From Aquilaria yunnanensis (lineage: Eukaryota > Streptophyta > Magnoliopsida > Malvales > Thymelaeaceae), in contig CM077594.1 in the NCBI GenBank assembly GCA_039654915.1, positions 95,618,893-95,682,892 of the forward strand: a stretch of 64,000 nucleotides of DNA, read 5' to 3'. Positions 15,684-62,425 of the stretch are shown here, piece by piece. The notes beneath the pieces are model-generated. The model was not told the origin of the DNA. It worked only from the letters and a program-made list of their open reading frames with translations, and did no database searches. The translations under genes and the position numbers were made by a program. Within the stretch, counting starts at the first letter, position 1, and every line of letters begins with the position of its first letter.

Positions 15684-15688
15684 TTCAT

Positions 15689-16206
15689 TTACCTCTTCTT
15701 TGTCCTCTTCTTTGCTCTCTTCTTTATCATGTAAGTGAATCTCAGATTGTTGCCCTCATTTGCGATATGATTCTGATCCACCAGAGTTGACAGACAGGTA
15801 TAAAACTTGGTTGACCGGTCTATGCCACGATGATCGAGCTCACGCTCGAAAACAATTTCCTCCTTCTCGTTATCATACAAAATTAAGCTTTCGCACTAAT
15901 CACACACAGCTTGGTGGCGTACAGAACAATATGTCTATCGTCTTCAGACATAGTCAGAGGCAACATGTTCTTAAAGCCCCAAAACTTTGTCTTTAAATCC
16001 CAGTAACTGCTGTTGCCATAGTCTTTCAAAATCCACAGCTCATGCAAGTCTGTACCTTCAAGAATGTCGAAAATAATACACAATCAACTTTTGCATTCCC
16101 AGACGTATTGGACATCATGTTCAGGACGAGTTAGTCTGAACTCCCTAAATTGTTTAGTATCTAGATCAACTGAAAGAACAAGATCTAGATCAAATGAAAG
16201 AACAAG
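15689..16206 (-). pseudogene. F-box-associated (FBA-like) domain fragment, left arm
   Basis: Read on the minus strand, the fragment begins with LVLSFDLDTKQFREF-like residues and contains LHELWILKDYG, LKTKFWGFKN, MSEDDRHIVLYATK and YDNEKEEIVFERELD. This order (a 'SFD' strand, then an ELW(I/V)xKxYG strand, then a 'YD..K' strand) is typical of the C-terminal F-box-associated beta-propeller region of plant SCF receptor proteins. No F-box is present. The frame is broken between 15880 and 15883, between the segments 16083-15883 and 15880-15689, whereas the right arm reads through the same point. The family call is by motif pattern only. Confidence 0.55.
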
Positions 16207-16208
16207 AG

Positions 16209-16707
16209 CTTGTTCTTTCATTTGAGCTAGATACTCAAGAATTTAGGGAGTTCAAACTGCCTCATCCTGAATACGATGTCAATATATCTGAGCTGAGAAT
16301 GTAAAGGTCGATTGTATATTATTTTCAATATTTTTGGAGATACAGACTTGCATGAACTGTGGATTTTGAAGGATTATTGGGACAACAGTTCCTGGGATTT
16401 AAAGACAAAGTTTTGGGGCTTTAAGGACGTGTTGTCTCTGATTATGTCTGAAGACGATAGATATATTGCTCTGTACGCCACCAAGCTGTGTGTGATTTAC
16501 TGCAAAAGGTCAATTTTGTATGATAACGAGAAGGAGGAAATTGTTTTCGAGCATGAGCTCAATCATCGTGGCATAGACCGGTCAACCAAGTTTTATACCT
16601 GTCTATCAACTCTGGTGGATCCGGATCATATCACAAATGAGGGCAACAATTTGAGGTTCACTTACATGGATAAAGAAGAGAGTAAAGAAGAGGACAAAGA
16701 ATAGGTA
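16209..16707 (+). pseudogene. F-box-associated (FBA-like) domain fragment, right arm
   Basis: The open segment 16312-16704 (130 codons) carries LHELWILKDYWD, LKTKFWGFKD, MSEDDRYIALYATK, YDNEKEEIVFEHELNHRGID, and ends in a charged tail KEESKEEDKE before a TAG at 16702-16704. It parallels the left arm residue by residue but reads through the point where the left arm is broken. Upstream, 16209-16311 holds the matching SFDLDTQEFREF-like strand in a disrupted frame. The F-box and the N-terminal half are missing, so this is a fragment rather than a working gene. No start codon is defensible. Confidence 0.55.
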
Positions 16708-16713
16708 AATGAC

Positions 16714-17274
16714 TGCGGGAATGGATTTTCGAAATCAGCATCGATGGGCGACCTCTAAACTGCCTCAAAGGAAAATATATTTTTACGCTTTCTTGAATTT
16801 TGACCCCCTGAATGTCCTTTGCTGCTTATGGGATGAGATGTGTTTTGGGAGGTCGGTCGGTTTGGAGACCTTTCCCGGAAGGCCCTATGAAGCCCAACAC
16901 TGCTTCCTCTAATTGAAAATGGCTCAGGATACTTGGTTTGAGAACAACTTCTACACGGTTAGTCCTGCGGTGCCCTAAAACGTAGACCTGCTAGATAACC
17001 TTTGGCAGTACGATGTGGTTGAAATTAGGTTCAAGCCTCTCCTTCCCTTCTATTTTTCTTTTCGCTTCTTCCCTTTTCTCTAGCAGAGATTTGTAGTAAT
17101 TAAAATAATTTGCGCGAAAATATTTGCATTTTCTGTCAGTTTCGAGGGAAACCTAGAACGAAAAACAGATACTTACCGCCCCATTTAAGGTTAATTCGTT
17201 TGAGTTAAAGTCAATTAATTTTTTTAAATTTTTATATTTTTTTATCTGAAATTAATTTTATTTGAAGGTTAATA
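16714..17274. other. No gene recognised
   Basis: A 67-codon ORF at 16709-16912 overlaps the end of the F-box fragment and then continues into DNA with no motif. The remainder is AT-rich intergenic sequence. Confidence 0.4.
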
Positions 17275-17559: not shown

Positions 17560-19878
17560 TATTATATAGATACAATAATTAATTTAAAAGTAAATTTTCA
17601 GGATGCTGTTAAATTTTTATGAATTTTTTTTAAGGCTTAAAACTAAAAAAATTCATAAAAAATTAGTAAAATTATAAAAATTGTATTTTTAATTGATTAT
17701 TGTAATTATATAATATTAACTTTTAATTAAAATTAATTTCAAATAAAAAATATAAAAATAAAAATAAATTATTTTATAATCAATTAACTAAAGTTAAAAA
17801 GATTAAAATATTTTTGGCTGTCCATAAAGGTTAAAATATTTTTTAGAAAAAGTTTACGCTCTTTTCTACCTAAAAAACAAAGAAAAAAGAAAATTCGTGT
17901 ATTGTTCTAAATTCTAATTCCCCAGCCAACATGTTGTTCGTCGTCGGCCGGAAGGGAGAACAATTATTGTAAGGCTTCTAGCTTTTCTTTTTTTTTTTTT
18001 TCATTCCTTTGAAGAACTTAATACGATGCTGGAAAATTTCGATGCATGAGATTTCTGTGCGCAATGAGGGATTCATCCTCGTGGGCTGCAGATTCGAATG
18101 GGCCATCGACCTCCAGTTCGCGGCCGCGGGGCTCCGGTGGAGGTCCGTGCAGATGCAGGTGAGGGCTTATAAGTGACGTTTGGTTTATTTTCCTTTATTT
18201 CGCTTCTAGTATTGAGGTTTCTACCGGTGTATTTTGGGCGTTTGACGATCCTGAATTCTTGATCTCCGTTGGGCATCCGGATTCTGGTTAATTTCGGTGT
18301 CTTTTAGGAGGATCTTGTGCGTAATCGTAGTAGGTATAGAATTGAATTTTGAATTTTGGGTTTGTCTGCAAGTGGAACTCTTCTGATATTTAGTTTTGGC
18401 TGTTGTTCGATAAGTTGTTGTTGATCTTAATTTTTGAGTGAAGCTCGATTCTGGCTCTCACTCAGTTGACTTGCTTAAGTCTACGATCTGTGGATTAATT
18501 GAGCTCAAGATATGGATGTTGGTTCTGCTGTAAAAAATGAGTCTCAATACCTTGGGACGAGCTGGAGATGGAAGAGTAAGTGTGGGGATTCGCGTACACA
18601 TGGATCTGTTGTTCACCAGTGGTTTATAGAAATGTTCAATGACTAATGGATTATGGAATAACCTTTCACCACTTTGTAGAAAATAATGAATCAGTGGTGA
18701 GCTTATTCTCATCCAAAAAGGAACTACTAACCAAATGTTGATGGTTATTCTATTTCGTGTTGAATTGTTCCGAGGACAATCGATTCATATTCTTCCGTAA
18801 ACAAATGACTCTATGGAAGTAAGCTAAGAAACCTGTTAACTTGAGAATTCACTGTTGGAGTGCCAAATTCATTTTGGATTCAGATTTTTAGACGTCATTT
18901 AGCACACCCAAGGTTTCTTTTCCTCTTTTTGTTTCTGTATACTGTTTGTTGTTCTTTTATTTATTTATGTACTTCTGGTGTATATAGCAACCATCTTTCA
19001 ACTGCTGGCACAACAGGAGGTCTGTCCACAAATAAAATGTTCTTCCAAAAAGCTATGGAAAGTGGATTCCAAGGGTCATCATGATCTTAATCCGCTATTG
19101 TGTCCAATGGCACAGGATGCCAAACGTGATCTCCTGTCTTGAGAATTCTGTGTTCTTCTAGTTGAGGAACTTGAATGTGATGTAGAAGATTTTCTTCTCC
19201 AGTGTTTGTCTTTCTTTTGTAATTATATTTGAAACACTAAGAAGCATTAGTAGTGATTCACTTCTTGACAAGTTTGCTTTTTAATTTCTGTTAAACTTCT
19301 ACTGCAAGGTAGAGGCAGAGTCACTTTGACATTTATCATCAAAATACTGCCCACTATTGCCTCCACCTAGGTCAACCATTGCATCAGCATTTAACCCTGA
19401 TGGGAAAACACTTGCTTCCACACAGTGAGTCTTGATATTTGCTTCATTCACATGAAGCCTTCCAATAAGTCCATTCTTAGGTTATTGTCTCAACGTCATT
19501 TTTGGTTCTCTTACATGCAGTGGTGATCATACGGTTAAGATTATCGATTGTAAAACTGGAAGGTGCTTAAGGGTATTGCGTGGTCACCAGAGAACACCTT
19601 GGGTGGTGATACTCTTATATTCTACATATTGCCTGTTGATATCTCTTTCCTATCATGGCAACTCTGCTGTTACAAGTGTTAAGTTTGATTTATGGTAGGG
19701 TACAGAGGGATGTGTTTGTAAAGCTAATTAAAACTTCAAATTTGTGTAAATTAGACATGTTGGTAGAGAATTTAATAGGATCAAGAGGATCATATTGCAG
19801 ATGAAATGGTTTCATTGAATTCTAATGGTCAGTCCATAAAAGCAGTTCTGTCGCTCTCCCTTTGTTCATGGGAAACTG

Positions 19879-20119
19879 TAATAGCGAAAAAGGATAAATT
19901 AATCTTTTAATTTTCTTTTTACTTATTTATTTTTAATTATTTATGTTTATTATTATTTATGCTTATTACTGTAGCTTGCTGTATCCTAGACTATCTAGGT
20001 ATCTGTATCCTAGTCTATCTAGGTTTTCATGTATCCTAGACTAACTAGGTTTTCTTGTATTGTGCCTATAAAGGCAGCACCCTTTTGTGAATAAATCAAG
20101 TTCTTCTCAATTCTCTACA
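19879..20119 (+). repeat. 5' LTR of the young Copia element
   Basis: 241 bp. It holds three near-identical direct repeats of about 25 bp starting at about 19980, 20004 and 20030 (core tgtatcctagactatctagg), each an imperfect palindrome. These are followed by a TATA box in gcctataaaggc (tataaa 20067-20072) and aataaa at 20090-20095. The layout is that of a U3 enhancer array, promoter and polyadenylation signal. Confidence 0.9.
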
Positions 20120-20131
20120 TGGTATCAGAGC
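20120..20131 (+). other. Primer binding site (initiator Met tRNA)
   Basis: tggtatcagagc directly abuts the 5' LTR. This is the standard Copia complement to the 3' end of initiator methionine tRNA. Confidence 0.95.
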
Positions 20132-20248
20132 GGGTTTAATCCCTTTCTCTCTTGCTATCCTTTTGCAAGAAACCCTAAATTTTCTCATCCTCTTACCGTA
20201 GCTTTTTGTTTTCCTGTACGGCCTGCTTCTTTTCTTTCTCTATTAGCA

Positions 20249-23200
20249 ATGGCAGAAAAAGTTCCAGTGGTTATCAATTCAGTAGCTCAGGTTCCCATCA
20301 AGCTTACGCAGTCCAACTTCTCTCTATGGAAGGCACAATTCCACAGTCTTCTCCTCGGCTTGGATCTTCTTGGATTTGTCAATGGGAAACATCCTAAACC
20401 TTCGCGGGAAATTGCTGCTGCAGAGGGAAAAGAACCAACTTCAAATCCGGAGTACTCTTACTGGGTGCGCCAAGATATTCTCATCCTCAATGGCATCTTC
20501 GCTTCTGTCTCCGAATCTGTCCTTCCTCTTATTGCTGCTACGAAATCATCCTATGAAGCATGGAGGACACTTGAAAATATCTTCGCCAATAAGTCTCGTA
20601 GCAGAATTATGTCCCTGAAGGAGCGTTTCACAATACCCAGAGGCAGTCGCACCATGTATGATTATCTTCGGTCCATCAGAAGTGTGGCTGATGACCTTGC
20701 AGCGGCAGATGCTCCAGTTTCGGATGATGATCTCACCATTCATATTCTCAATGGGATTGGCAGTGAATATCGGGAGATTGCAGCTGCCATAAAGTCTCGT
20801 CCAACTCCCGTTTCTTTTGCAGAGCTCCATGACATGCTTATGGATTATGAAGTTTTCTTGCAGAAGCAGGATGCAGCCTACACCATAACTACAGCCAATG
20901 CCGCCACCACCAAACACCAGCAGCAGCCACCTCTTTTACCCACTCCCAAGAACCTGCCCATGATCAACCGATCTTGGAATTCTCCCCGAGGCGGTGGCAC
21001 CTTCAATCACGGACGTAGTCGTCGGCCCTACAATCCACGGTGTCAGCTCTGTTTTGAGTTTGGCCATACAGCTTGGGACTGCACTAGTCATCGTCCTGCC
21101 TCCTCTTCTCACCCCTCTGTTAATGCTACCACATCAACCAGAAAACCATGGCTTCTGGACTCTGGCGCTTCACATCATGTTACTTCTGACCTTGGCTCCT
21201 TCCGTCAATATTCTAAGTACACTGGTCCTGATCAACTTGTCATTAGTGATGGGGACTCTCTGCCTATACGTCATTCTGGTTCTATTACCTTACACACCTC
21301 TAATCATTGTTTTACTCTTTCCGATTCCCTTCATGTTCCTCAAATTGCTAATAATCTAGTTTTTGTTTCTCAATTTTGCAAGTCTAATAATGCTTCTATT
21401 GAATTCTTTCCCTTTTCATTTTGTGTGAAGGACCTGGTAACGGGGGCGCCAATTCATCGCGGGCAGAGTAAGGACGGTCTGTATTTCCTTTCAGCTGCAA
21501 CACCAAAATCTCCACCCAGAGTTTCAGCCACAACCAAGTCGTCTCAAAGTTTGTGGCATCATCGTCTTGGTCATCCTGCTACAAAAATACTGAATTTAAT
21601 TTTATCTAAATATTCTTTAGCTAGTTCCTCTCTCGATTCCAATTTTTGTAATTCTTGCAACTGCCATAAAAGTCACAAACTTCCTTTTAGTGTTTCTACC
21701 CTTTCTAGTCAACGTCCACTTGATTTGGTTTATGCTGATGTTTGGGGGCCTGCCCCAGTTTCTTCCATTGATGGTTTCCGTTACTATCTTTGCTTAGTGG
21801 ATCATTTTACTAAATATATTTGGTTTTATCCACTAAAACACAAATCTGATGTCTACGACACTTTCAAAAAATTTAAGCTTCTTGTTGAAAATTTTTTTAA
21901 TACTAAAATTGTCCAACTTTATACTGATGGTGGTGGAGAATTTCAAAAACTACAGCACTTTCTCTCTTCAGAGGGGATTTCGCATCTTCTCACACCACCT
22001 CACACACCTCAACACAATGGGACAGTTGAACGTAGACATCGCCATATTGTTGAAACTGGTTTATCTCTTCTTCATCATGCCAATATGCCTTCTTCGTATT
22101 GGACTTTTGCTTTTGCAGCTGCTGTCTATCTTATTAATCGTCTTCCTACACCTGTTCTTCAAAACAAGTCACCTTTTACTGTTCTTTTTCAACAAGATCC
22201 AAACTATGCTAAGTTAAAGGTTTTTGGTTGTCTTTGTTATCCGTGGCTTAAACCTTATATTAAGCACAAGTTTCAAACTAAGTCTAGACCTTGCATTTTT
22301 CTAGGATATTCTCTCAACCAAAGTGCCTATCTTTGTTTTGATGCACACACTACCAAAATTTTCACCTCTCGTCATGTAGTTTTTTATGAACATATTCTTC
22401 CTTTTCCTTCTCTCTTTCCATCTTCAAAATCCATTTCAGCTGATTCTCATTTTTCTTGGGATTGTGGAGCGGCGGTCAATGGAAATATAGACTCCATCCC
22501 TTCTCAGTTCAACTCTGACAGCGATGTTTTGGCGCTCAACAAATCAGGTGATACCTTCTCTTTTTTACCTCTTTTTTTAATTGGTAGTCTCCATCAAGAG
22601 GTTCCTCCAGTCCCTACTTCACCAGCCCCTCCCCCTTGTTTTGCTGTTCCCCTGGTTACCTACCAGAGACGCCATCGTCCTCCACCAGACACCGCTTCCC
22701 CCCCACCAGCACCTAATTTACCCCTTCTACCAACTGCCCAAACGTCTGAACCTCCCAGACGCAGCCACCCTATGGTCATTCGCTCCCAAGCTGGCAAACA
22801 AAGCCATGCTTCCAATACACAACCTCTTCCTCTTCCATTTGAACCCACTTTTGCTTCTGCAGCTTTGAAAGATCCGAATTGGAAAAATGCAATGCTTCAG
22901 GAACTTGATGCTCTTCAGAAAAACAATACTTGGGTCCTAGTGCCCCCAGCTTCTTCTCAGAATGTTGTTGGTTGCAGGTGGGTCTTTCGGACCAAGTTCA
23001 ACCCCGATGGCAGCATCTCCAAGTACAAAGCACGTCTTGTGGCTAAGGGCTTTCATCAACGGCCTGGCTTGGACTACACTGAAACTTTCAGTCCCGTGGT
23101 CAAGCCCTCTACCGTGCGCTTGGTTCTTACAATTGCTGTTTCTCATAATTGGCCACTCCATCAAGTTGATGTTAACAATGCCTTTTTGCAAGGAGATCTC

Positions 23201-24232
23201 TCTGAAGAGGTTTATATGTGGCAACCACCGGCCTTTGTTGATCCTACTCGGCCAACACATGTTTTCCATCTTCAGAAAGCCATTTATGGCTTGAAGCAAG
23301 CCCCACGAGCCTGGTACAAGTCCTTATCCAACTTTCTTCTGTGTACAGGCTATCGGAATTCCAAGGCCGACTCCTCCCTCTTTATCTACAACTGTGGTGA
23401 GATTGTTTCTTATGTTCTTGTCTACGTTGTTGATATCATTATTACTGGGAACAACCAAGCTTTCTTGCAACAGTTTCTCTCTATTCTTTCATCAGCCTTT
23501 TCCGTGAAGGATTTAGGTGAGCTGAATTTCTTTCTTGGTGTGGAGGTTGTGCGCACATCCTTGGGTCTTGTTCTCTCTCAACGGCAATATATTCTTGACA
23601 TCCTCTCCCGGGCTCATATGGAAAATGCCAACGGTGTTGCTACACCGCTTTCTAAGTCAACCACTCTTCGTCTTGTTGATGGGTCTGCTGCCACAGATGC
23701 TACAGAGTTTCGTCGACTAGTTGGTGCATTGCAGTATCTTTCCTTCACACGGCCTGGCATTGCCTTTGCTGTCAATAAATTGTCTCAGTTTATGCACAAG
23801 CCCACCGTCTTGCATCTTGCTGCCTTGAAACGCGTTCTTCGCTATCTCAAGCGTACTTCTGATCATGGCATTGTTCTTCATCCTCATAAGGCGCCTAGCT
23901 TGGTCGCGTTTGCAGACTCTGACTGGGCTGGAGACCCTGATAACTTTCATTCCACCTCTGCCTATCTTATTTATTATGGCAATTCGCCAATTTCTTGGAG
24001 CTCCCGGAAGCAACGCTCCATTGCTAAGTCTTCCACTAAAGCTGAGTATCGTTCCATATCCACTACATCTTGTGAGCTTGACTGGCTTCAGTCTCTTTTA
24101 CATGACCTTGGAGTCTCTCTTCCAGTGCCCCCTACGCTCTACTGCGATAATCTTAGTGCTACCTATGCTTGTGCCAATCCTGTCTTTCATTCTAAAATGA
24201 AGCACATTGCCTTGGGCTATCACTTTGTATGA
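20249..24232 (+). CDS. Copia gag-pol polyprotein, RT active site mutated, early stop
   Basis: The start is the ATG at 20249 (MAEKVPVV); upstream codons of the same open frame lie in the LTR and leader. In order: Gag (residues 1 to about 230); CCHC knuckle CQLCFEFGHTAWDC near 265-278; protease WLLDSGASHH at about 301; GAG-pre-integrase LWHHRLGHP near 435; integrase catalytic D497, D560, E594; reverse transcriptase; RNase H (FADSDWAGD, SSTKAEYRS, LYCDN). The frame is open for about 1,327 codons without a frameshift. Two point changes matter. The RT box reads YVVD instead of YVDD (residues 1059-1062, nt 23423-23434), losing a catalytic Asp. A TGA at 24230-24232 cuts RNase H where the family continues xDKV. 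The coding end continues in frame to about 24380. It cannot mobilise itself unless complemented. Confidence 0.9.
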   Translation: MAEKVPVVINSVAQVPIKLTQSNFSLWKAQFHSLLLGLDLLGFVNGKHPKPSREIAAAEGKEPTSNPEYSYWVRQDILILNGIFASVSESVLPLIAATKSSYEAWRTLENIFANKSRSRIMSLKERFTIPRGSRTMYDYLRSIRSVADDLAAADAPVSDDDLTIHILNGIGSEYREIAAAIKSRPTPVSFAELHDMLMDYEVFLQKQDAAYTITTANAATTKHQQQPPLLPTPKNLPMINRSWNSPRGGGTFNHGRSRRPYNPRCQLCFEFGHTAWDCTSHRPASSSHPSVNATTSTRKPWLLDSGASHHVTSDLGSFRQYSKYTGPDQLVISDGDSLPIRHSGSITLHTSNHCFTLSDSLHVPQIANNLVFVSQFCKSNNASIEFFPFSFCVKDLVTGAPIHRGQSKDGLYFLSAATPKSPPRVSATTKSSQSLWHHRLGHPATKILNLILSKYSLASSSLDSNFCNSCNCHKSHKLPFSVSTLSSQRPLDLVYADVWGPAPVSSIDGFRYYLCLVDHFTKYIWFYPLKHKSDVYDTFKKFKLLVENFFNTKIVQLYTDGGGEFQKLQHFLSSEGISHLLTPPHTPQHNGTVERRHRHIVETGLSLLHHANMPSSYWTFAFAAAVYLINRLPTPVLQNKSPFTVLFQQDPNYAKLKVFGCLCYPWLKPYIKHKFQTKSRPCIFLGYSLNQSAYLCFDAHTTKIFTSRHVVFYEHILPFPSLFPSSKSISADSHFSWDCGAAVNGNIDSIPSQFNSDSDVLALNKSGDTFSFLPLFLIGSLHQEVPPVPTSPAPPPCFAVPLVTYQRRHRPPPDTASPPPAPNLPLLPTAQTSEPPRRSHPMVIRSQAGKQSHASNTQPLPLPFEPTFASAALKDPNWKNAMLQELDALQKNNTWVLVPPASSQNVVGCRWVFRTKFNPDGSISKYKARLVAKGFHQRPGLDYTETFSPVVKPSTVRLVLTIAVSHNWPLHQVDVNNAFLQGDLSEEVYMWQPPAFVDPTRPTHVFHLQKAIYGLKQAPRAWYKSLSNFLLCTGYRNSKADSSLFIYNCGEIVSYVLVYVVDIIITGNNQAFLQQFLSILSSAFSVKDLGELNFFLGVEVVRTSLGLVLSQRQYILDILSRAHMENANGVATPLSKSTTLRLVDGSAATDATEFRRLVGALQYLSFTRPGIAFAVNKLSQFMHKPTVLHLAALKRVLRYLKRTSDHGIVLHPHKAPSLVAFADSDWAGDPDNFHSTSAYLIYYGNSPISWSSRKQRSIAKSSTKAEYRSISTTSCELDWLQSLLHDLGVSLPVPPTLYCDNLSATYACANPVFHSKMKHIALGYHFV

Positions 24233-24384
24233 GACAAAGTGACTGAAAGAAAATTGCTTGTTCATCACATTCCAACTGAGACTCAGCTTGCCGATGCCCT
24301 CACTAAGCCTCTTCCGTGGCCACGCTTTGATGCCATTAAACTCAAGATTGGTGTCGTCACTAGCTCCACCATCTTGCAGGGGCG

Positions 24385-24625
24385 TAATAGCAAAAAAGGA
24401 TAAATTAATCTTTTAATTTTCTTTTTACTTATTTATTTTTAATTATTTATGTTTATTATTATTTATGCTTATTACTGTAGCTTGCTGTATCCTAGACTAT
24501 CTAGGTATGTGTATCCTAGTCTATCTAGGTTTTCATGTATCCTAGACTAACTAGGTTTTCTTGTATTGTGCCTATAAAGGCAGCACCCTTTTGTGAATAA
24601 ATCAAGTTCTTCTCAATTCTCTACA
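24385..24625 (+). repeat. 3' LTR of the young Copia element
   Basis: 241 bp. It differs from the 5' copy at the eighth base (g to a) and in the second enhancer repeat (c to g). It is preceded by the polypurine tract and followed by the aactg target duplication. Confidence 0.95.
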
Positions 24626-27369: not shown

Positions 27370-27395
27370 GGGGGGGGGGGGGGGGGGGGGGGGGG
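27370..27395 (+). repeat. Homopolymer of 26 G inside an intron
   Basis: An uninterrupted G run preceded by cccc and followed by cggttgggggtgg, in the AMBRA1-like intron between exons 26811-26871 and 27575-27688. It has strong G-quadruplex potential. The exact length is the least reliable base count in the window. Confidence 0.8.
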
Positions 27396-46351: not shown

Positions 46352-47609
46352 GGGTAAAATTCACCGGGGGTCACCTAGCTTATTTTTTTATCCTAAACAG
46401 GTACCTTACCTTCAAATTATCCTACCGAGGTACCTTATCTCTTATCGCGTGTCTTGTTTAACTATTTTCCGTTAATTTCAGAGTTATATCTAACGGAAAT
46501 TGCTTACATGGCATAAAAAAAATTAAAATAAATCATAAAATAACACTTGTGGTCCTTTAATTTTTTTCTATCAACAATTCTAAACCCTAACATTTAAAAT
46601 CTAACTCATCCCCTTCCTAAACCAAATGCACGCATGCACACCGCCGCGAGCCACCTCCATCCTCCCTCCTCCCCTCTCCGCCACCCTCCTCTCCTCTCCT
46701 TCGTCTCTCTCTCTGCCATAATCTTTTGGTTCCTCTCTTCTCCGTCTCACTTCTTCCGCTCCTTTCCTCCGTCTCTCCCTCCGCCTCAATCTCTCTGTTC
46801 ATCTTGCAGGAATCATTCACTAAGCCCATCGTTGCCGCTCGCACTTACGAATTGAGGCATTTTGGTACCGAATTGAGGAGTTCTGGTGAGTTAAGGCTGC
46901 CGGTGAGGTATCGGAGATAGAAGACGGCGGTTTCGTAAGCGCGAGCGGCAACGACGGGCTTCCGCAAAATCGCACGGCGGAGAAAGAGAGTACTGGGACC
47001 GAATTGAGGCGTTTTGGTATCGAATCGAGGAGTTCTGGTGAGTTGAGGCTGCCGGTGAGGTATCAGAGATAGAAGACGGCGGTTTCGTAAGCACAAGCAG
47101 CAACGACAGGCTTAGCGATTGATTCCTGCAAGATGAACAGAGAGATTGAGGCGGAGGGAGAGACGGAGGAGAGGAGAGGAAGAAGTGAGACGGAGAGGAG
47201 AGGAGATGAACCAAGAGATTGTGGTGGAGGGAGAGACGGAGGAGAGGAGAGGAGGGTGGCGGAGAGGAGGGAAACGGAGGCGGAGAGGGGAGGAGGGAGG
47301 ATGGAGGCGGCTCGCGGCGGTGTGCGTGCGTGCATTTTGTTTAGGAAGGGGATGAGTTAGATTTTAAATGTTAGGGTTTAGAATTGTTGATAGAAAAAAA
47401 TTAAAGGACCATAAGTGTTATTTTATGATTTATTTTAATTTTTTTTATGCCACGTAAGCAACTTCCGTTAGATATAACTCTGAAATTAACGGAAAGTAGT
47501 TAAACAGGACACGCGATAAGAGGTAAGGTACCTTGGTAGGACAATTTGAAAGTAAGGTACCCGTTTAAGACAAAAATATAAAGTAGGTGACCACCGGTGG
47601 ATTTTACCC
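46352..47609. mobile_element. Long-TIR Mutator-like element A in the leucyl-tRNA synthetase promoter
   Basis: 1,258 bp, flanked by a perfect 10-bp duplication tttagggttt (46342-46351 and 47610-47619). The terminal repeats start gggtaaaattcaccgg and are nearly complementary for about 480 bp on each side, so the element is mostly fold-back. The loop (about 46856-47118) holds two direct copies, about 150 bp apart, of a block containing ggagttctggtgagttaagg and gacggcggtttcgtaagc. The purine-rich arms create long spurious Arg/Glu or Ser/Pro ORFs. It shares termini with element B at 60295-61750. Confidence 0.9.
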
Positions 47610-47648
47610 TTTAGGGTTTTATGAAGCGCTATATAAACGCTTTAAATA
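47610..47648 (+). promoter_or_regulatory. Remnant promoter of the leucyl-tRNA synthetase copy (telo-box and TATA)
   Basis: Only 20 bp of host DNA (47620-47639) lie between the target duplications of two separate transposons. They contain the TATA box ctatataaac (47629-47638). The left duplication tttagggttt is itself a telo-box (AAACCCTAAA class), common in promoters of plant translation genes. The start codon that should follow about 90 bp downstream is now 7.1 kb away. Confidence 0.7.
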
Positions 47649-49687
47649 GGACCGTTCTAAAATACATGGTGGGTAACGGTGCCGCCCCGTTTTCCACCGT
47701 CCGATCAAAAGATTGGATTTTGGTTTAAAATACTCTTTGCAACTATACTTTTATATTATTGTCATTTTAGTCCCAAATATTTATTTTGTTTTTCCTAGAC
47801 TATTCCGTTCAGATCAAGTATGAATAAGTTTTAAAGTAACCTACTTTTGTAGGTTATAGGTGTTAACTCTAAAATTGCGACCAGTGTAACCTAAAAAAAA
47901 ATCGATAAAAAACTAAGAAAAGTGAAATATTTTTTTTAAAAAGCGATTAAAACTAAAAAAAATCAAAATTTTTCTAAAAAATCAATTAAATATTAAAAAA
48001 GTGATAAATGTTAAAAAATGGTAAATATTTTTAAAAAGTGATAAAAAATTCCAAAATGCAATAAAGATTTTTAAAAAGTGATAAAAAAATGGAAATTTTT
48101 TAAAAAAAAGTTATAAAATTTAAAAAAAAAAAGTGATAAATGTTAAAAAATTGGTAAAAATTTTTACAAAGCTATTAAAAACCGAAAAAGTGATAAATAA
48201 TTATAGAATGTAATAAATAATTTAAAAAAATTATTAAACAAAAAAACAATTAAAAACTAAAAAAATTGAAATATTTATCAAAAAATTGATTAAATAAAAA
48301 AAAGCAATTAAAACTAAAAAAATCAAAATTTTTTTAAAAAAAGAAAATAAATATAAAAAAATTGATTAAATATAAAAAAAAGTGATAAATGTTAAAAAAT
48401 GGTAAATATTTTTTAACAGCGATTAAAAACCAAAAAAGTTATAAAAATATCTAAAATGTAATAAATATTTTAAAAATGCGATAAAAAATAAAAAAGTGAA
48501 TAAAATTTAAAAAAAAGTAATATTTATTTTATATAATTATGTACATTATTGATATCATTAGTTAATAATTATACTTTTGTAGGTCTAAAAAGAAATGATT
48601 TATTCGTTTGAATATATTTAATAATATGTGTGATTATTACATTTAATAATGTAAATATCATTAAATATAAATCTATTAATTAACTATACTTTTTAGTAAA
48701 TACATATTTATACTTATTATTATATTAGTATTTCATATTATGAATACATATTTTAAATGCAATAAATATTTTAAAAAAGCGATAAAAAACAAAAAAAAAA
48801 AGTGACAATTTCTTAAAAAAAGTGATAATATGTTAAAAAAAGCTATTACATGTTCAAAAAGGCTATTACATGTTCAAAAAAGCTATTACATGTTCAAAAA
48901 AGCGATAACATTAAAAAAAAGTGATAAATGTTTAAAAAAATGGTAAATTTTTTAAAATGCTAATAAAAAATGAAAAAGTGATAAATAATTCTAAAGTGAA
49001 ATAAAAAATTTTAAAAAAGGATTAAATTAAAAAAAATAAGAGAAACACATCTACAAAAAGTGATATTTTTTTAAAAAAAGTGATTAAATATACAAAAAAG
49101 ATATTAAAACTAGAAAAAGTGAAAAAATTTTAAGAAAGTTGATTAAATATTAAAAATATGATTAAATATAACAAAAATCAATAAAATATATAAACAAGTG
49201 ATCAATGTTGACAAAATTGTCAATATTTTTAAAAAACAATTAAATACTGAAAAGGTGATAAAAACATCTAAGATGCAATAAAATTTTTAAAAAAGCGATA
49301 AAAATATAAAAAAAAGTGACATAATATAGAAAAAAAGTGATTAAGTATAAAATAAGTGTTTAAATATAAAAAAGTGGTAAAACTGGAAAAAAAGTGAAAA
49401 ATGTTAAAAAAATGGTAAATATTTTTTAGAAGCTATTAAAAAACAAAAAAGTGATAAATAATTCTAAAATGCAATAAATATTTTACAAAAATGTTTAAAT
49501 AAAAAAGAAGTGACACAAAACTAAAAGTAGCAAAAAAATTTTCAAAAAAGTGATTAAATATAAAAAAAATGATGAATAATTAAAAACAATAAAAATTAGT
49601 ACCAAATTGATTATCATATTTGATTAATTTTTTAATAATTTGTTTAAAAATTACACATATCTTCCTCTGATTTTATAAACATATTAC

Positions 49688-50130
49688 AAAATCTTATAAT
49701 GACCTAAACCTTAATCTCTAACCCTAAATATCAACCCTAAGCTCTAACCCTAACCTTAAACCCTAATTGTATATTCAGTGACCTGTTCAATGAAAGAACT
49801 CTAACATAACAAGTAACCCTAGCTTTAATTATAATTCTAATCCTCAACCCTAAATGAATTACTAACCCTAACCTTAATTACCTAAACACAACTCTAACCT
49901 AAACCATAACCCTAAACCCTAAACCTTGACCTAACCTTAATTCCTGATCCCTAACCCTAAACCCTAATCCCTAATCCTAAATCCTAATATTAAATCCCTA
50001 ACCCTAAAAGTAATTTTAATCCTAACCCTTAATCCTAAACCCTTATCATTAACCTTAACCATAATCCTAACATTAAATCCCTAACCCTAAACATAATCCA
50101 AATCCTAACCTATTAATCCTAAAACAAAAT
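49688..50130. repeat. Degenerate telomere-like repeats, left arm (CCCTAAA type)
   Basis: Irregular runs of aaccctaa, ccctaaaccctaa and aatcctaa over about 440 bp. The matching inverted block is at about 52865-53310 in the right arm. The unit is the Arabidopsis-type CCCTAAA plus variants. Confidence 0.85.
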
Positions 50131-50304
50131 GCCTTAATCATCTAAATTAATATTTATTTTATATAATTATATACATTATTGATATCATTAGTCAATAATT
50201 ATACTTTTTTACATCTAAAAATAAATCATTTATTGGTTTGAATATATTGAATAATATATGTGATTATTACACTTAACAAAATAAATATCATTGACAACTT
50301 AATT

Positions 50305-52708
50305 TGATACCACAAAAACCATAACTTAAAACCACTAGAACCTTAAACTGGTACCACTTTACCTTAAATTGGTACCACTACAACCTTAACTTGGTACCAT
50401 TAAACCTTATTTTGGTACCAATATGACCTTAAGTTGGTACTAGTAGAACCTTAAGTTGGTACCAGTATAACTATAATTTGGTACCACTAGAACCTTAAAC
50501 TGGTACCACTTTACCTTAAATTGGTACCACCACAACCTTAACTTGGTACCATTAAACCTTACTTTGGTACCAATATGACCTTAAGTTGGTACCAGAAGAA
50601 CCTTAAGTTGGTACCAGCATAACCATAATTTGGTACCACTAGAACCTTAAACTGGTACCACTTTACCTTAAATTGGTACCACCACAACCTTAACTTGATA
50701 CCAGTAAACCTTACTTTGGTACCAATATGACCTTAAGTTGGTACCAGAAGAACCTTAAGTTGGTACCAGCATAACCATAATTTGGTACCACTAGAACCTT
50801 AAACTGGTACCACTTAAGGTCATATTGGTACCAACTTAAGGTCATATTGGTACCAAAGTAAGGTTTAATGGTACCAAGTTAAGGTTGTGGTGGTACCAGT
50901 TTAAGGTTTTAGTGGTACCAAATTATGGTTATACTGGTACCAACTTAAGGTTCTACTGGTACCAACTTAAGGTCATATTGGTACCAAAGTAAGGTTTAAT
51001 GGTATCTAGTTAAGGTTATGGTGGTACCACTTTAAGGTAAAGTGGTACCAGTTTAAGGTTCTAGTGGTACCAAATTATGGTTATGCTGGTACCAACTTAA
51101 GGTTCTACTGGTACCAACTTAAGGTCATATTGGTACCAAAATAAGGTTTAATGGTACCAAGTTAAGGTTGTAGTGGTACCAATTTAAGGTAAAGTGGTAC
51201 CAGTTTAAGGTTCTAGTGGTACCAAATTATGGTTATACTGGTACCAACTGAAGGTTCTACTGGTACCAACTTAAGGTCATATTGGTACCAAAGTAAGGTT
51301 TAATGGTGCCAAGTTAAGGTTGTCCTGGTACCAATTTAAGGTAAAGTGGTACTAGTTTAAGGTTCTAGTGGTACCAAATTATGGTTATGCTGGTACCAAC
51401 TTAAGGTTCTACTGGTACCAACTTAAGGTCATATTGGTACCAAAGTAAGGTTTAATGGTACCAAGTTAAGGTTATCCTGGTACCAATTTAAGGTAAAGTG
51501 GTACCAACTTAAGGTTCTTCTGGTACCAACTTAAGGTCATATTGGTACTAAAGTAAGGTTTACTGGTATCAAGTTAAGGTTGTTGTGGTACCAATTTAAG
51601 GTAAAGTGGTACCAGTTTAAGGTTATAGTGGTACCAAATTATGGTTATGCTGGTACCAACTTAAGGTTCTTCTGGTACCAACTTAAGGTCATATTGGTAC
51701 CAAAGTAAGGTTTAATGGTACCAAGTTAAGGTTGTGGTGGTACCAATTTAAGGTAAAGTGGTACCAGTTTAAGGTTCTAGTGGTACCAAATTATAGTTAT
51801 ACTGGTACCAACTTAAGGTTCTACTGGTACCAACTTAAGGTCATATTGGTACCAAAGTAAGGTTTAATGGTACCAAGTTAAGGTTGTGGTGGTACCAATT
51901 TAAGGTAAAGTGGTACCAGTTTAAGGTTCTAGTGGTACCAAATTATGGTTATACTGGTACCAACTTAAGGTTCTACTGGTACCAACTTAAGGTCATATTG
52001 ATACCAAAGTAAGGTTTACTGGTATCAAGTTAAGGTTGTGGTGGTACCAATTTAAGGTAAAGTGGTACCAGTTTAAGGTTCTAGTGGTACCAACTTAAGG
52101 TTCTTCTGGTACCAACTTAAGGTCATATTGGTACTAAAGTAAGGTTTACTGGTATCAAGTTAAGGTTGTGGTGGTACCAATTTAAGGTAAAGTGGTACCA
52201 GTTTAAGGTTCTAGTGGTACCAAATTATGGTTATGCTGGTACCAACTTAAGGTTCTACTGGTACCAACTTAAGGTCATATTGGTACCAAAGTAAGGTTTA
52301 ATGGTACCAAGTTAAGGTTGTGGTGGTACCAATTTAAGGTAAAGTGGTACCAGTTTAAGGTTCTAGTGGTACCAAATTATGGTTATGCTGGTACCGACTT
52401 AAGGTTCTACTGGTACCAACTTAAGGTCATATTGGTACCAAAGTAAGGTTTACTGGTATCAAGTTAAGGTTGTGGTGGTACCAGTTTAAGGTTCTAGTGG
52501 TACCAAATTATGGTTTTGCTGGTACCAACTTAAGGTTCTTCTGGTACCAACTTAAGGTCATATTGGTACCAAAGTAAGGTTTAATGGTACCAAGTTAAGG
52601 TTATCCTGGTACCAAGTTAAGGTTGTCCTGGTACCAATTTAAGGTAAAGTGGTACCAGTTTAAGGTTCTAGTGGTTTTAAGTTATGGTTTTTGTGGTATC
52701 AAATTAAG
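50305..52708. repeat. KpnI-site (GGTACC) satellite with seven-monomer higher-order unit
   Basis: Monomers of 21-22 bp of the form ggtaccNNNttaaggtNNNNN. In the right part seven distinguishable monomers follow a fixed order (their tails read ttctact, catatt, ttaat, ttgtggt, aaagt, ttctagt, ttatgct), giving a higher-order unit of about 152 bp. About three units run in one orientation (50320-50810) and about twelve in the other (50811-52675). The switch is near 50811. Some units lack one or two monomers (for example near 52085 and 52480). Estimated total is about 100 monomers. Confidence 0.9.
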
Positions 52709-52864
52709 TTGTCAATGATATTTATTTTGTTAAGTGTAATAATCACATATATTATTCAATATATTCAAACCAATAAATGATTTATTTTTAGATGTAAAAA
52801 AGTATAATTATTGACTAATGATATCAATAATGTATATAATTATATAAAATAAATATTAATTTAG

Positions 52865-53310
52865 ATGATTAAGGCATTTTGTTTTAGGATTAATAGGTTA
52901 GGATTTGGATTATGTTTAGGGTTAGGGATTTAATGTTAGGATTATGGTTAAGGTTAATGATAAGGGTTTAGGATTAAGGGTTAGGATTAAAATTACTTTT
53001 AGGGTTAGGGATTTAATATTAGGATTTAGGATTAGGGATTAGGGTTTAGGGTTAGGGATCAGGAATTAAGGTTAGGTCAAGGTTTAGGGTTTAGGGTTAT
53101 GGTTTAGGTTAGAGTTGTGTTTAGGTATTTAAGGTTAGGGTTAGTAATTCATTTAGGGTTGAGGATTAGGATTATAATTAAAGCTAGGGTTACTTGTTAT
53201 GTTAGAGTTCTTTCATTGAACAGGTCACTGAATATACAATTAGGGTTTAAGGTTAGGGTTAGAGCTTAGGGTTGATATTTAGGGTTAGAGATTAAGGTTT
53301 AGGTCATTAT
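52865..53310. repeat. Degenerate telomere-like repeats, right arm (TTTAGGG type)
   Basis: Reverse complement of the block at 49688-50130, with near-complete identity by eye (gggtttaggattaagggttagg... order is preserved). Confidence 0.85.
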
Positions 53311-56300
53311 AAGATTTTGTAATATGTTTATAAAATCAGAGGAAGATATGTGTAATTTTTAAACAAATTATTAAAAAATTAATCAAATATGATAATCAAT
53401 TTGGTACTAATTTTTATTGTTTTTAATTATTCATCATTTTTTTTATATTTAATCACTTTTTTGAAAATTTTTTGCTACTTTTAGTTTTGTGTCACTTCTT
53501 TTTTATTTAAACATTTTTGTAAAATATTTATTGCATTTTAGAATTATTTATCACTTTTTTGTTTTTTAATAGCTTCTAAAAAATATTTACCATTTTTTTA
53601 ACATTTTTCACTTTTTTTCCAGTTTTACCACTTTTTTATATTTAAACACTTATTTTATACTTAATCACTTTTTTTCTATATTATGTCACTTTTTTTTATA
53701 TTTTTATCGCTTTTTTAAAAATTTTATTGCATCTTAGATGTTTTTATCACCTTTTCAGTATTTAATTGTTTTTTAAAAATATTGAAAATTTTGTCAACAT
53801 TGATCACTTGTTTATATATTTTATTGATTTTTGTTATATTTAATCATATTTTTAATATTTAATCAACTTTCTTAAAATTTTTTCACTTTTTCTAGTTTTA
53901 ATATCTTTTTTGTATATTTAATCACTTTTTTTAAAAAAATATCACTTTTTAATAACTTTTTTTTATATTTAATCAATTTTTTTATATTTATTTTCTTTTT
54001 TTAAAAAAAGTTTGATTTTTTTAGTTTTAATTGCTTTTTTTTATTTAATCAATTTTTTGATAAATATTTCAATTTTTTTAGTTTTTAATTGTTTTTTTGT
54101 TTAATAATTTTTTCAAATTATTTATTACATTCTATAATTATTTATCACTTTTTCGGTTTTTAATAGCTTTGTAAAAATTTTTACCAATTTTTTAACATTT
54201 ATCACTTTTTTTTTTTAAATTTTATAACTTTTTTTTAAAAGATTTCCATTTTTTTATCAGTTTTTAAAAATCTTTATTGCATTTTGGAATTTTTTATCAC
54301 TTTTTAAAAATATTTACCATTTTTTAACATTTATTACTTTTTTAATATTTAATTGATTTTTTAGAAAAATTTTGATTTTTTTTAGTTTTAATCGCTTTTT
54401 AAAAAAAATATTTCACTTTTCTTAGTTTTTTATCGATTTTTTTTTAGGTTACACTGGTCGCAATTTTAGAGTTAACACCTATAACCTACAAAAGTAGGTT
54501 ACTTTAAAACTTATTCATACTTGATCTGAACGGAATAGTCTAGGAAAAACAAAATAAATATTTGGGACTAAAATGGCAATAATATAAGAGTATAGTTGCA
54601 AAGAGTATTTTAAACCAAAATCCAATCTTTTGATCGGACGGTGGAAAACGGGCGGCACCATTACCCACCATGTATTTTAGAACGGTCCCTTTAAATATGT
54701 GCCTTAGGGAGCTTAGGTTTTTTCTCTTAATTCTCGTTTCTTCGGGCTAAACATGCGGTGCACGTCAATGACGACTGAGGGAAGAAGTTTAGCGAGAAGA
54801 GATCGGTTGCTGGAGATAGAGTGCGAGGCTCGAAGATGGTGGGAGGAGAATGAAGTATTCAGGGCGGAAGCCGGGGAGGGATTGCCTGAACCCGGCGAGA
54901 AGTTCTTCGGCAACTTCCCCTTCCCCTACAGGAATGGCTTCCTTCATCTGGGTCACGCCTTCTGGCTTTCGAAGCTCCAATTCGCGGCGGCTTACCATCG
55001 ATTGAGAGGTGCCAATGTGTTGCTTCCCTTTGCTTTCCACTGCACCGGCATGCCCATTAAAGCGGAGGTGGACAAGCCGGAGAGTCCGGCACCGGAACAA
55101 GCTCAGGAAGCCAACGCGCCAGATAAGTTCAAGGTTAAGAAGTCCAAGGCAGCTTCCAAGTCTGGTGGTCAGATGTTTCAATGGGAGATTATGAGGAATT
55201 TTGGCTTTGCCTGACGGCGAGATATCGAAATTCCAGAACCCATGTCAATGGTTGAGCTTCTTCCCTCCTCTAGCAGTGGAAGATCTAAAGGCCTTTGGTC
55301 TGGGCTGCGACTGGAGACGCTCCTTTGTTACAAAGACATGAGCCCTTTCTTCGATTCGTTCGTGAAGTGGCAGATGAGAAAGCTGAAATCCATGGGTAAG
55401 ATTGTTAAGGATGTTAGGTATACTATATACGCTCCTCTGGATGGCCAACCTTCTGCTGACCACGACAGGGCTAGCGGAGAAGGAGTACAGCCTCAAGAGT
55501 ACACCATCATTAAGATGGAAGTGGTACCCCCATTCCCTAGTAAATTAGGACCTCTGGATGGGAGAAAAGTGTTTCTGGTTGCTGCAACTCTGAGGCCTGA
55601 GACAATGTACGGGCAGACAAATGCGTGGGTGTTGCCGGATGGGAAATATGGAGCTTTTGAGATTAATGAAACCGATGTCTTTATCCTGATAGAGAGAGCA
55701 GCTCTTAACCTTGCGTATCAGAAGTTCTCCAGGATTCCTGAGAAACCCACTTGCCTGATTAAGCTGGCTGGTTATGATCTGATTGGTCTTCCAGTAAAAT
55801 CACCACTTTCCTTCAATGAGATTATCTATGCTCTGCCAAAGCTGACCATTCTGACTGACAAAGGAACCGGTATTGTAACCAGTGTGCCCAGTGATGCTCC
55901 TGATGATTATATGGGATTGCATGATTTGAAGGCAAAACCAGCTCTTCGAGCCAAGTATGGTGTGAAAGATGAGTGGGTGTTGCCCTTTGAGACAGTTCCT
56001 ATAATCGACATTCCAGGCTTTGGGGACATGCCAGCAGAGAAAGTGTGTAAAGATCTCAAGATTAAAAGCCAGAATGAAAGGTTAAAGCTTGCAGAAGCAA
56101 AGAGATTGACATACTTGAAGGGCTTTACAGAAGGAACAATGCCGGTTGGAGAATATGCAGGGTGGAAGGTTCAAGAAGCTAAGCAGTTGATTAGAACCAA
56201 ACTGATTGAGACAGGTGAGGCAATTATGTACAGTGAACCTGAGAAGAAGGTTATGTCCAGTTCTGGCGATGAATGTGTTGTGGCGCTGACCGATAAATGG

Positions 56301-56759
56301 CATATCACTTATGAGGAACTGTTAGAAAATCGGGAAAAACATGTGCTATAATTGTACATTAGCTGTAAATTAGTCATTAATTGTAACATACCTATTTAGA
56401 TGCAAATCTGTGTATTTTAGGAAAGTTCTGCCTAAGAATTATTCTTTCTTTAAATCAGTGATTTAGTTTCCTAATTTAATGGTTTGTTATTAGTTGTAAA
56501 TCACTATAAAAGAACAATCTCAATAACAGATGCATTATTCCGTGCAAACCTCTTTTTCAAGTCGGTATCAGAGCAGAAAGAATCCCTTTGCGGGAATTCC
56601 CTTCTCATTCCTTCCTTTTGATCCCTACAACCTAAAACCATGTTTGACGCTTCGTCTGATTCCTATACTATCCCTTAAACTTCCCTGAACAACCCTAGAA
56701 GTACGAGTGTTCCAAAAATTAGTGCTACCTCATCAGAATCTCATTCTGTTCAAATCACC

Positions 56760-59700: not shown

Positions 59701-62425
59701 TTACTATCAAGAGTAAAGTAGATGGGAGTGTCGAGAGATATAGAGCCCGCCTTGTTGCAAAAGGTTTTACTCAAACCTATGGGATAGACTTCCAAGAGAC
59801 CTTTGCTTCGGTAGCTAAAATAAACTTGATTAAGGTCCTGTTGTCCCTGGCCATTAACTCCAATTGGCCCTTACACCAATTGGATGTTAAAAATGCTTTC
59901 CCTAATGGAGACCTTGAGGAAGAGGTATACATGAGTCCCCTACCAGGTTTTGAAGAAAGGTGTGGAAATGAGGAAGTATGCTGATTGAAGAAGTCATTGT
60001 ATGAACTTAAACAGTCACCAAGAGCTTGGTGTGAGCACTTTGGCAAGGTGATAAAGCATTATGGGTATGTTCAAAGTCAAGCTGATTATACAATTTTTTA
60101 CAGGCATTCAAATGATGGTAAAATAGCTATCTTGATAGTATACGTGGATGATATTATGTTAAATGGGGATGATTGTGATGGGCTGGAAAAGTTAAAAAAA
60201 AAATTGGCTGAGGAGTTTGAGATTAAAGATCTTGGGACATTAAAATACTTTCTTGGGATGGAGTTTGCTAGGTCTAAAGAAGGCATTTTTGTAAGGGTAA
60301 AATCCATCATGGGTCACCTAGCTTATTTTTTTGTCCTATTCGGGTACCTTACATTTATTTTGTCCTAGCAAGGTACCTTTCCTCTTATTGTGCGTCCTGT
60401 TCCACTACTTTCCGTCAAATTAATTGTTAAATTGGATGAAAAATGATGATGTGACATAAAAAAATACTAAAATAAATTGTAAAATAACACTTGTATTTTT
60501 CTAACTTTTCCTATCAACAATTTTAAACCCTAAACTTTGCCTATGACCTCCCTTGTCCCCTTCCTCCTTTTCTTGCTTTTCACCACCACTCCTTCTATTG
60601 TCCGGCCACCACCATCGTTGCAACTTGCTTGTTGTACACAACAACTTCAACAACAACATCATACCCATCGTTCCCCTAAAAAATCGATGATGGAAGTAAA
60701 AGGAAGGGCTGGGTCATGGCTCGATTTATGCAGACCTGCAATTTCCTCACCATCCTCAACGAACTTAAAAAAAAAAAAAATCAACCAAGCAAAAAATTGA
60801 ACAACCCAGAAAGCTACTCTTAAAAAATCAACAATCAACCACATGTAGCTTCCTAACAATTGAACAATCAGCGACTCAGTGATTGTTTTGGCAAAAATGC
60901 CGATAATTTGGCCCCTAATCATAGATTGATGGCGATGGCGGTGGCGGACTTCGTCATCTAGTGAGGCACTAATGATTCCTCTCCAATGCTGCATAAGATA
61001 AATCGTTGAACTTGGTTGGCGATTAAGTGACCGATTCGACTCCAAAATTGAAACGTTGCAATACAAGGTAAGGCTTGTAAGCCAATGCTAAACGGAGCCC
61101 CGCCGCTGTTGATGATAAGCTGATCTCCAAACCAGCACCAATGTCATTGATGTCGAGGCTCTCTTTATTGGATGCATGATGTCGGGGGTGACTGGAAATC
61201 AAATCAAATTGGGTGCGCGATCGAGATTGAAAATGGCTAGAAATTGGATCGGGTGCGTGAGATCAAGAACTGTTGGAAATTGGATCTTAATTTCTTCTCG
61301 TATGAGGTGTTGCAGGTGCAAGGTCGGAGACATGAGGCCATGGGCGGTGGGTCATGAGCTTGCTGGTGGTGGTGGCAATGATGGGGAGGAAGGAGGATAA
61401 ATTGGCGGCGGTGGAGAGGCTGGGCTAGGTGGTTCTGGGTTTTTCTAGATTTGTTTTGATTTGTTTCATGCAAGTGGTGTGAGGTAGATTCAGAAATTGA
61501 AGATGTTAAAAATTGAATATGTAAAATTATTGGTTTAGAAAGTTAGAGGATCAAAAGTGCTATTTTACAATTTATTTTAATCTTTATTTATGCCACATCA
61601 GCATTTTCTGTCTAGGTTAATGTTGGAATAATGGAATGTAGTTGATTAGGAAGCGCAATAGAAATAAAGGTACCTCGCTAAGACAATTTAAAGGTAAGGT
61701 AGCCATTTAGGACAAAAAAATAAGCTAGGTGACCCCCGGTGAATTTACCCATTTTTGTAAATCAGAAGAAATATGTCATTGACTTGCTTAATTAGACAAG
61801 TATGCTAGGGTGTAAACCTGCTAAAACTCTTATAGAACCTAATGTGAAACTACAACCTACAGAAACTGAGAATGTGAAAGACAGGGAGCATTATCATAGA
61901 CTCGTTGGGAGATTGATTTATCTATCCCATACATGCCCAAATATATCCTTCTCTGTTAATATGGTCAGCCAGTTTATGCATGCCCTAGGACCGGCACACT
62001 TTGAAGCTGTCTGCAGAATTTTAAGGTATCTAAAGGGGACACCAGGCAAATGACTACTGTTTAAGCCACAATGACACTTGCAGATTGAAGCCTACACAGA
62101 TGTAGATTGAGCTGGGAACATAGTAAACCAAAGATCCACTTCTGGATACTGTTCATCTGTAGGTGGTAACTTGGTTACATGGAGAAGCAAAAAACAGAAT
62201 GTGGTTGCTAGGAGCAGCGTTGAGGCTAAATTTAGAGCTGTAGCCCATGGTATTTGCGAGATCATGTGGATTAAAAGGCTGTTGGAAGAATTAAAGGCTA
62301 TAGAGTCATCTCCTATGAAGTTGTACTGTGACAACAAGGCAACAATCTCAATAGCACACAATCCAGTCCTTCATGACCACACAAAACATATGGAGGTTGA
62401 CAAGCATTCATTAAGGAGAAGATAG
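56760..62425 (+). pseudogene. Copia gag-pol remnant of the old element
   Basis: Recognisable in order but broken by many stops and frame changes: Gag (LNGDNFLRWSQSIRMY, about 56770), UBN2-type segment 57113-57631 with a decayed CCHC knuckle (WCDFCNRPCHTHETCWNY), protease WIIDSGASDHMT (about 57725), GAG-pre-integrase WHCCLGHPSFSCLKHL (58118), integrase (FIDDHTRLYWVY; NTPEQNGIAEHKNKH near 58575), reverse transcriptase (GCKWVFTIKSKVDGS; intact YVDD at 60141-60152), then, after the nested insertion, RNase H (61802-62425; MVTWRSKKQNVVARSSVEAKF, LYCDNKATISIAHNP). The gene is interrupted within the RT region at 60285-60294. No function is left. Confidence 0.9.
60295..61750. mobile_element. Mutator-like element B nested in the old Copia
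   Basis: 1,456 bp with a perfect 10-bp duplication atttttgtaa (60285-60294 and 61751-61760). The termini gggtaaaatccatcatgggt and the inverted accccccggtgaatttaccc-type end match element A (46352-47609), as do the following cacctagcttatttttttgtcct and aggtacctt blocks. The interior differs from A: it has GC-richer sequence at 60540-61440, including an unrecognised minus-strand ORF 61066-60659 (135 codons). This may be captured host sequence. Confidence 0.85.

Follow-up and report, generated by a model that had tools for sequence, protein, structure and literature searches.

Long composite inverted repeats with unique ends and inner tandem repeats, bounded by 9-bp duplications, characterize both FB of Drosophila and FARE of Arabidopsis; in both, fold-back is the normal form, and the tandem repeats in the arms of FB are ordered. 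Tm1 of root-knot nematodes belongs to a Mutator/fold-back family with 9-bp duplications and variable tandem repeats in its ends, as set out in part of a paper that also mentions a transposase with a MULE (Mutator-like element) domain for FARE (PMC3169594). Tetris, a non-autonomous fold-back element of Drosophila virilis, has 8-10-bp duplications and ~220-bp tandem repeats within its inverted repeats and was assigned to Mutator by its authors (PMC4079207). For Galileo, of the P superfamily, the pertinent sections describe a longest copy in Drosophila willistoni whose two arms measure 4,246 and 4,680 bp; this copy has AT-rich segments but lacks a transposase segment, and the arms carry ~140-bp tandem repeats of unequal number and can grow by absorbing internal sequence (PMC4168063). 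In maize, Mu killer is a rearranged MuDR in which both terminal inverted repeats (TIRs) come from the mudrA-adjacent end and the partial mudrA copies end in an inverted duplication (PMC3440606). Mu killer silences MuDR; according to the portion of that account used here, its centre was not sequenced and the way it silences is debated, short antisense RNAs being proposed alongside an earlier long-hairpin model (PMC3440606). Here we describe a palindromic element in a 64,000-nucleotide stretch of the Aquilaria yunnanensis genome (the window; G000:C2:95618893-95682892 of an 842-Mb assembly), together with the transposon family to which it very probably belongs.

The element occupies window positions 47649-54688 (7,040 bp) and is bordered on both sides by a perfect 9-bp duplication, CTTTAAATA (47640-47648 and 54689-54697). 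It consists of two left halves, head-to-head, joined once within a satellite. In our judgement it is, with high probability, a non-autonomous MULE of a satellite-carrying family that was rearranged into a palindrome. From the outside inward, each arm passes through a terminal module, A-rich micro-repeats, telomere-like CCCTAA repeats and a GGTACC satellite. In the left arm (plus strand), the first left-type terminal module lies at 47649-47896, the A-rich micro-repeats at 47897-49600 (borders approximate), degenerate telomere-like CCCTAAA repeats at 49705-50110 (by tandem-repeat analysis) and the satellite, with its 152-bp higher-order unit, at 50298-50815. In the right arm (minus strand), the inverted satellite spans 50816-52708, the inverted telomere-like repeats 52896-53301 and the T-rich, i.e. 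inverted A-rich, micro-repeats 53302-54440 (borders approximate), followed at 54441-54688 by a second, inverted copy of the left-type terminal module in the position that the right end takes in the rest of the family. This bears out the layered arms of a preliminary description of the locus: satellite, telomere-like and A-rich repeats make up most of the element. That description also had it encoding nothing, and we found no stop-to-stop frame of at least 100 amino acids (aa) in the palindromic element and recognized no transposase sequence there; the copy is non-autonomous.

Inverted-repeat analysis recovered arm blocks of 867, 704 and 494 nt with 99-100% complementarity, so that the copy folds back over nearly its whole length, with arms of unequal length (3.17 versus 3.87 kb). 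The ends had been called exactly complementary. The outermost 28 bp are indeed the same, but 38 of the first 40 bases match, so 'exact' applies to the tips only. Across 1,971 aligned non-satellite columns, 1958 are identical and 13 differ (99.3% identity). An A-rich block of 667 bp in the left arm (48387-49053, plus strand) is missing from the right arm, where the corresponding deletion lies near 53950; the block is kept, as 621-694 bases, in all 12 of the other type-A copies compared. Divergence of those 12 copies from the window arms is 1.2-7.2% and is lowest for L031 (1.2 and 1.7%). As 0.7% separates one arm from the other, less than separates either from L031, the palindrome postdates the L031 split. 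Plant substitution rates lie between 5e-9 and 1.5e-8 per site per year, which puts the parting of the arms very roughly at 0.2-0.7 million years ago.

The satellite has a higher-order repeat of ~152 bp composed of seven monomers of 21-22 bp. The main order of monomer classes is ABCGDEF with some units missing, an order also present in all four further copies whose monomer classes were compared (L035, L033, L043 and L038). Self-complementary words, TGGTACCA and CTTAAG, were noted by eye in the monomers. Satellite lengths, taken from tandem-repeat limits and our own reading of the junction near 50,815, were 518 bp for the left arm and 1,893 bp for the right. The difference of 1,375 bp is about 9 x 152, i.e. 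some nine higher-order units, and together with the strong divergence of the two satellite parts we read it as array turnover. A marker of satellite direction scored 0 forward and 230 reverse in 20 other loci of the family, as against 13 and 3 in the window. The head-to-head junction itself (50795-50835, containing the 8-mer TGGTACCA by eye) was found at 1 place in the 842-Mb assembly, the window, allowing ≤3 mismatches; the control gave 0. A junction found once between arms that are 99.3% identical outside the satellite points to a recent, single derivative.

We then turned to the family as a whole. The terminal 248 bp were searched against the assembly and the best 40 of 136 candidates scored as left-end matches. 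A left-end pattern scan (≤3 mismatches) gave 46 places, of which a tandem array on C2 accounts for 14; the other 32, the window's two among them, lie outside it. A right-end pattern scan at the same threshold gave 17, and the reversed controls for both gave 0. Twenty relatives were sampled as 10-kb loci. In none of the 20 did the 10 kb contain a second, inverted left end; a different right end was present in 14. An ordinary copy begins with its left end, passes through A-rich and then telomere-like repeats to a 7-monomer satellite of one direction, and finishes in a right end of 750 bp that differs from the left one. The 14 two-ended copies were 4,587-9,296 bp long, and 11 had perfect duplications of 9-10 bp; L033, L041 and L047 had none. 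The two ends of a copy have a common 17-bp tip, which in the window is GGACCGTTCTAAAATAC, the outer 17 bp of the left-type module (16-17 of the 17 bases in 11 copies, 13-15 in three). Over the first 40 bases, the ends of the 14 relatives match at 20-31 positions, versus 38 in the window copy. The preliminary description's classification as a fold-back element therefore fails: with 0/20 relatives carrying an inverted second left end and 14/20 carrying a different right end, the family is not fold-back. Its suggested genome-wide count of copies did yield relatives with their own 9-10-bp duplications, but no second palindromic copy within the 3 mismatches allowed.

The short right-end pattern missed six loci (L037, L039, L045, L046, L048 and L050), and the duplication counts cover the 14 right ends that it found. 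A search with the ~750-bp right module, for which the best 40 of 774 candidates were scored (a lower bound), then placed modules in L037, L039, L045 and L048; neither the pattern nor the 750-bp search gave one in L046 or L050. No close outward-facing pair that might mark a right-right palindrome was present among the 17 right-end matches. Few frames of at least 150 aa in the 20 loci were assigned to elements. One in L048, in or probably in the element, encodes a hAT dimerisation domain and thus marks a nested element. L050 has three such frames, overlapping or adjoining, in or probably in the element; two were scanned, with no Pfam match.

One other pair of inward-facing left ends was present among the 46, at C8:31007598/31017274, and was considered as a second palindrome. 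Its flanks are themselves inverted copies: 114 bp beyond the ends align, and flank plus end match at 312 of 356 positions (88%). With these inverted flanks and an interior that looks gene-like by eye, we take it as an older inverted locus and not as a palindrome bounded by a duplication. The surrounding region (G000:C8:31007268-31017604; L051-L054), of which the outer 700 bp on each side were read, perhaps holds Pack-MULE-like gene-capturing copies. The left-end scan allows 3 mismatches, and more diverged palindromes would escape it. The tandem array on C2 (G000:C2:8575745-8614763; L014, L016, L017, L019, L021-L024 and L027-L029) is a separate observation. It comprises at least 16 family left ends in one direction, 14 of 15 spacings being 1.41-1.59 kb and one 7.2 kb, and its unit is a truncated element end plus a protein-kinase gene fragment (PF07714, E 2.3e-5; peptide translated by eye). 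At one edge, left and right family ends lie 10 kb apart, and the sequence between them was partly read.

A 41-bp satellite probe (≤3 mismatches) had 622 matches in the assembly, and its reversed control had 0, a contrast well outside what chance would give. We listed 100 of the 622 sites; most of the 522 others were not placed singly. The listed sites form 19 clusters, whose edges were checked at 35 places. In 18 of the 19, the checked edges lay 0.86-5.5 kb inside a family right-end module, and the 19th cluster is the window; 254 of the probe matches fall in the sampled loci and the window. No free satellite array outside an element was seen among the matches listed. Because the listed clusters adjoin family right ends, the satellite looks transposon-borne among the sites checked. 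The notion that the element seeds tandem arrays at new sites finds no counterpart among the sites listed, whose clusters other than the window all adjoin right ends of the family.

To place the family in a superfamily, we relied on duplication length, terminal repeats and transposase-bearing relatives. Duplications are 9 bp in the window and 9-10 bp in 11/14 relatives, within the 9-11 bp typical of MULEs, and the 17-bp tip forms a terminal inverted repeat that the transposase would be expected to recognize. A PF10551 profile scan of the assembly, in which the best 150 of 1,492 candidates were scored, placed three MULE domains within 25 kb inside the 40 scored right ends, where 0.18 would be expected if the domains were evenly spread. 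All three are antisense to the element and 5.8-8.5 kb inside the right end. The best case is a 23-kb relative, C8:32810251-32833248, read at its two tips and over a further 324 bp. Both of its tips are present, each next to the same perfect 9-bp duplication, GCATTTGAT; its left end has 29 of the 35 bases read as in the window, and its right module is 91% identical over 750 bp to that of L035. The PF10551 domain lies in a 628-aa open frame (fragment E 1.1e-27). We regard this relative as a probable autonomous partner, short of proof. A 15.3-kb relative on C7 matches at 8 of 9 duplication bases, and at C2:11795169 a right module is followed inward by satellite at 1.3-3.4 kb and, in line with both, by a MULE domain at 6.2 kb. 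As the 23-kb relative joins 9-bp duplications, a family right end and a MULE transposase domain, we conclude that these are Mutator-superfamily elements. The preliminary identification of a Mutator-like mobile element with 9-bp duplications thus holds, from CTTTAAATA on both sides of the window copy and from the evidence of the family.

How might an ordinary copy have become a palindrome? We suggest that a MULE transposase from a long relative would have moved an ordinary element into the window site and that, during or after that move, repair or replication would have copied the left half in inverted form, replacing the right half. The likeliest route would be gap repair after excision or a break, in which the right flank, ending in the common 17-bp tip, could prime on the left end. 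Copying would then proceed inward from the primed left end, and the two nascent strands would join in the self-complementary satellite. Later, the satellite would have grown or shrunk by whole higher-order units and the right arm would have lost its 667 bp. The main rival is a palindrome formed at another site, or extrachromosomally, and then transposed as one unit, making the CTTTAAATA duplication as it inserted. A perfect 9-bp duplication, two intact ends and termini that are both complete left ends are all compatible with such a history, to which we allow a substantial if minority chance. It would be easier to accept had a second palindromic copy turned up; the assembly has a single instance of the junction, and the sole other inward-facing pair among the 46 left ends includes inverted flanks. 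Conversion in place also explains the same duplication with one step fewer. The preliminary description had the element moving as one unit; because the head-to-head junction was found once in the assembly, this is not shown for the palindrome, which may have been made in place.

Three further explanations were weighed. Two ordinary copies inserted nearby in opposite directions, with the middle then deleted, would leave left ends facing outward on both sides and the satellite joined head-to-head. Separate insertions would not, however, have one common 9-bp duplication across the outer ends, and the arms are 0.7% apart, as against 1.2 and 1.7% to the nearest compared copy, L031; we regard this history as highly improbable. 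An assembly or read-chimera artefact, i.e. a false inverted duplication, seems just as improbable. Long-read chimeras can produce false inverted repeats, and the core here is repetitive and seen in a single copy. Yet a chimera is expected to give identical arms and an identical flank, whereas 13 substitutions, a deletion of 667 bp and satellite lengths of 518 versus 1,893 bp set these arms apart, and the same 9-bp duplication stands at both outer ends next to different flanks. Least credible of all is a true fold-back family of which the window copy would be typical. The copy does fold back over nearly its full length, but in none of the 20 relatives do the 10 kb sampled contain a second left end, their satellite is one-directional, and their ends match at 20-31 of 40 positions in 14 relatives versus 38 in the window.

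Several observations weigh against an origin by rearrangement of an ordinary family member in place. The palindrome is known from the assembled sequence. The repair route is inferred, and insertion of a ready-made palindrome would leave the same duplications. The 23-kb relative is absent from the 40 scored left-end matches; of the other MULE matches, C8:23038821 has an internal stop and the one on C2 lies also 14.7 kb outside a second right end. Of the derived changes, 10 belong to the right arm and 3 to the left, an excess in the direction expected for a copied right arm that is suggestive and not significant (p 0.09). Arm differences are denser on the outside (9 in 738 bp outer versus 4 in 1,235 bp inner; Fisher p 0.022), a clustering that simple ageing of two copies does not predict and that conversion between the inner arms, or chance, may explain. 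Finally, divergence between the arms is much greater in the satellite than elsewhere, which calls for later array turnover.

Set beside the described systems, Mu killer is the nearest architecture, judged from the published sections cited above. It too is a MULE derivative with both ends from the same parental end and an inverted duplication between them, and the window copy shows the same two features. Mu killer, however, duplicates transposase coding sequence, whereas the duplicated half here has no recognized coding sequence: it contains no frame of at least 100 aa, and the MULE matches of the relatives lie 5.8-8.5 kb from the right terminus. Silencing of a transposase is therefore not predicted; satellite-bearing copies could be the targets of silencing. 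Galileo, in the passages on its longest copy, is alike in its two long arms, AT-rich segments, unequal tandem repeats and lack of a transposase segment there, and different in its transposase superfamily, its 7-bp duplications and the absence from that description of a telomere-like layer. Tetris is likewise non-autonomous and of Mutator type with 8-10-bp duplications and tandem repeats in its arms; it is a fold-back element, unlike the Aquilaria family, and its repeats form longer satellite arrays, whereas none was seen here outside elements among the sites checked. Tm1, from the part of its description used, shares Mutator affinity, 9-bp duplications and variable tandem repeats in the ends, but its repeats are short (13-15 bp) and composite inverted repeats define the family. 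FB and FARE resemble the window copy in their long composite inverted repeats, unique ends, inner tandem repeats and 9-bp duplications. In those elements fold-back is normal; here it marks one rearranged copy of a family in which a second left end appears within 10 kb in 0/20 relatives and their satellite is one-directional. The preliminary view that no such element was known to carry an ordered higher-order satellite overlooks the tandem repeats of FB, Tetris and the longest Galileo copy. Among the titles and abstract openings screened, no plant MULE was described with a higher-order satellite, which does not prove that none exists; a word search of PMC3310237 gave no occurrence of satellite, foldback or palindrom. 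The separate pieces are already known; what is new, relative to those sources, is their combination in one plant MULE family, whose higher-order satellite is conserved and which has a telomere-like layer and one palindromic derivative.

Other features of the window are recorded here for completeness. At 46352-47609, 39 bp left of the palindrome, is another element, whose inverted repeats are ~500 bp long (88%) and whose 10-bp duplication reads TTTAGGGTTT (by eye); a sister of it, with ~214-bp inverted repeats (77%), lies at ~60293-61754. On the other side, a class-I tRNA-synthetase gene (54689-56351; leucyl-like by eye) has PF00133 in a frame at 54717-55214; its possible start codon lies ~80 bp beyond the element, which places the palindrome on the gene's 5' side. 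Further away are a 1-kb near-palindrome (15682-16715) with 88% inverted identity, at which no clear target duplication was seen, and a Copia-like retrotransposon (by eye; 19878-24625) that contains a long open frame and is recent, to judge by the 99.2% identity of its 242-bp end repeats. A run of 26 G at 27370-27395 is unusual in this AT-rich window and may be an assembly or sequencing oddity.

As a speculation that we hold to be unlikely but worth stating, the ordered satellite, perhaps with the telomere-like layer, might be a working part of the MULE family and not cargo, e.g. an array for binding transposase or host proteins. The same array would make the family prone to flip one half into Mu killer-like palindromes, possibly yielding hairpin RNA against satellite-bearing copies. 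The features that we would cite for a working part are the 21-22-bp monomers with self-complementary words, their single direction, one main 7-monomer order genome-wide and the presence of the satellite beside a transposase-bearing relative. More generally, the locus illustrates that a striking single copy can be the exceptional member of a larger, ordinary family. It joins two subjects usually studied apart: the dispersal of a higher-order satellite by a class II transposon, and inverted-half derivatives of the Mu killer kind. With ordinary, palindromic and transposase-bearing copies in one assembly, the origin of one-ended palindromic MULEs, and any silencing of their relatives by them, can be tested with reads and small RNAs of a single species.

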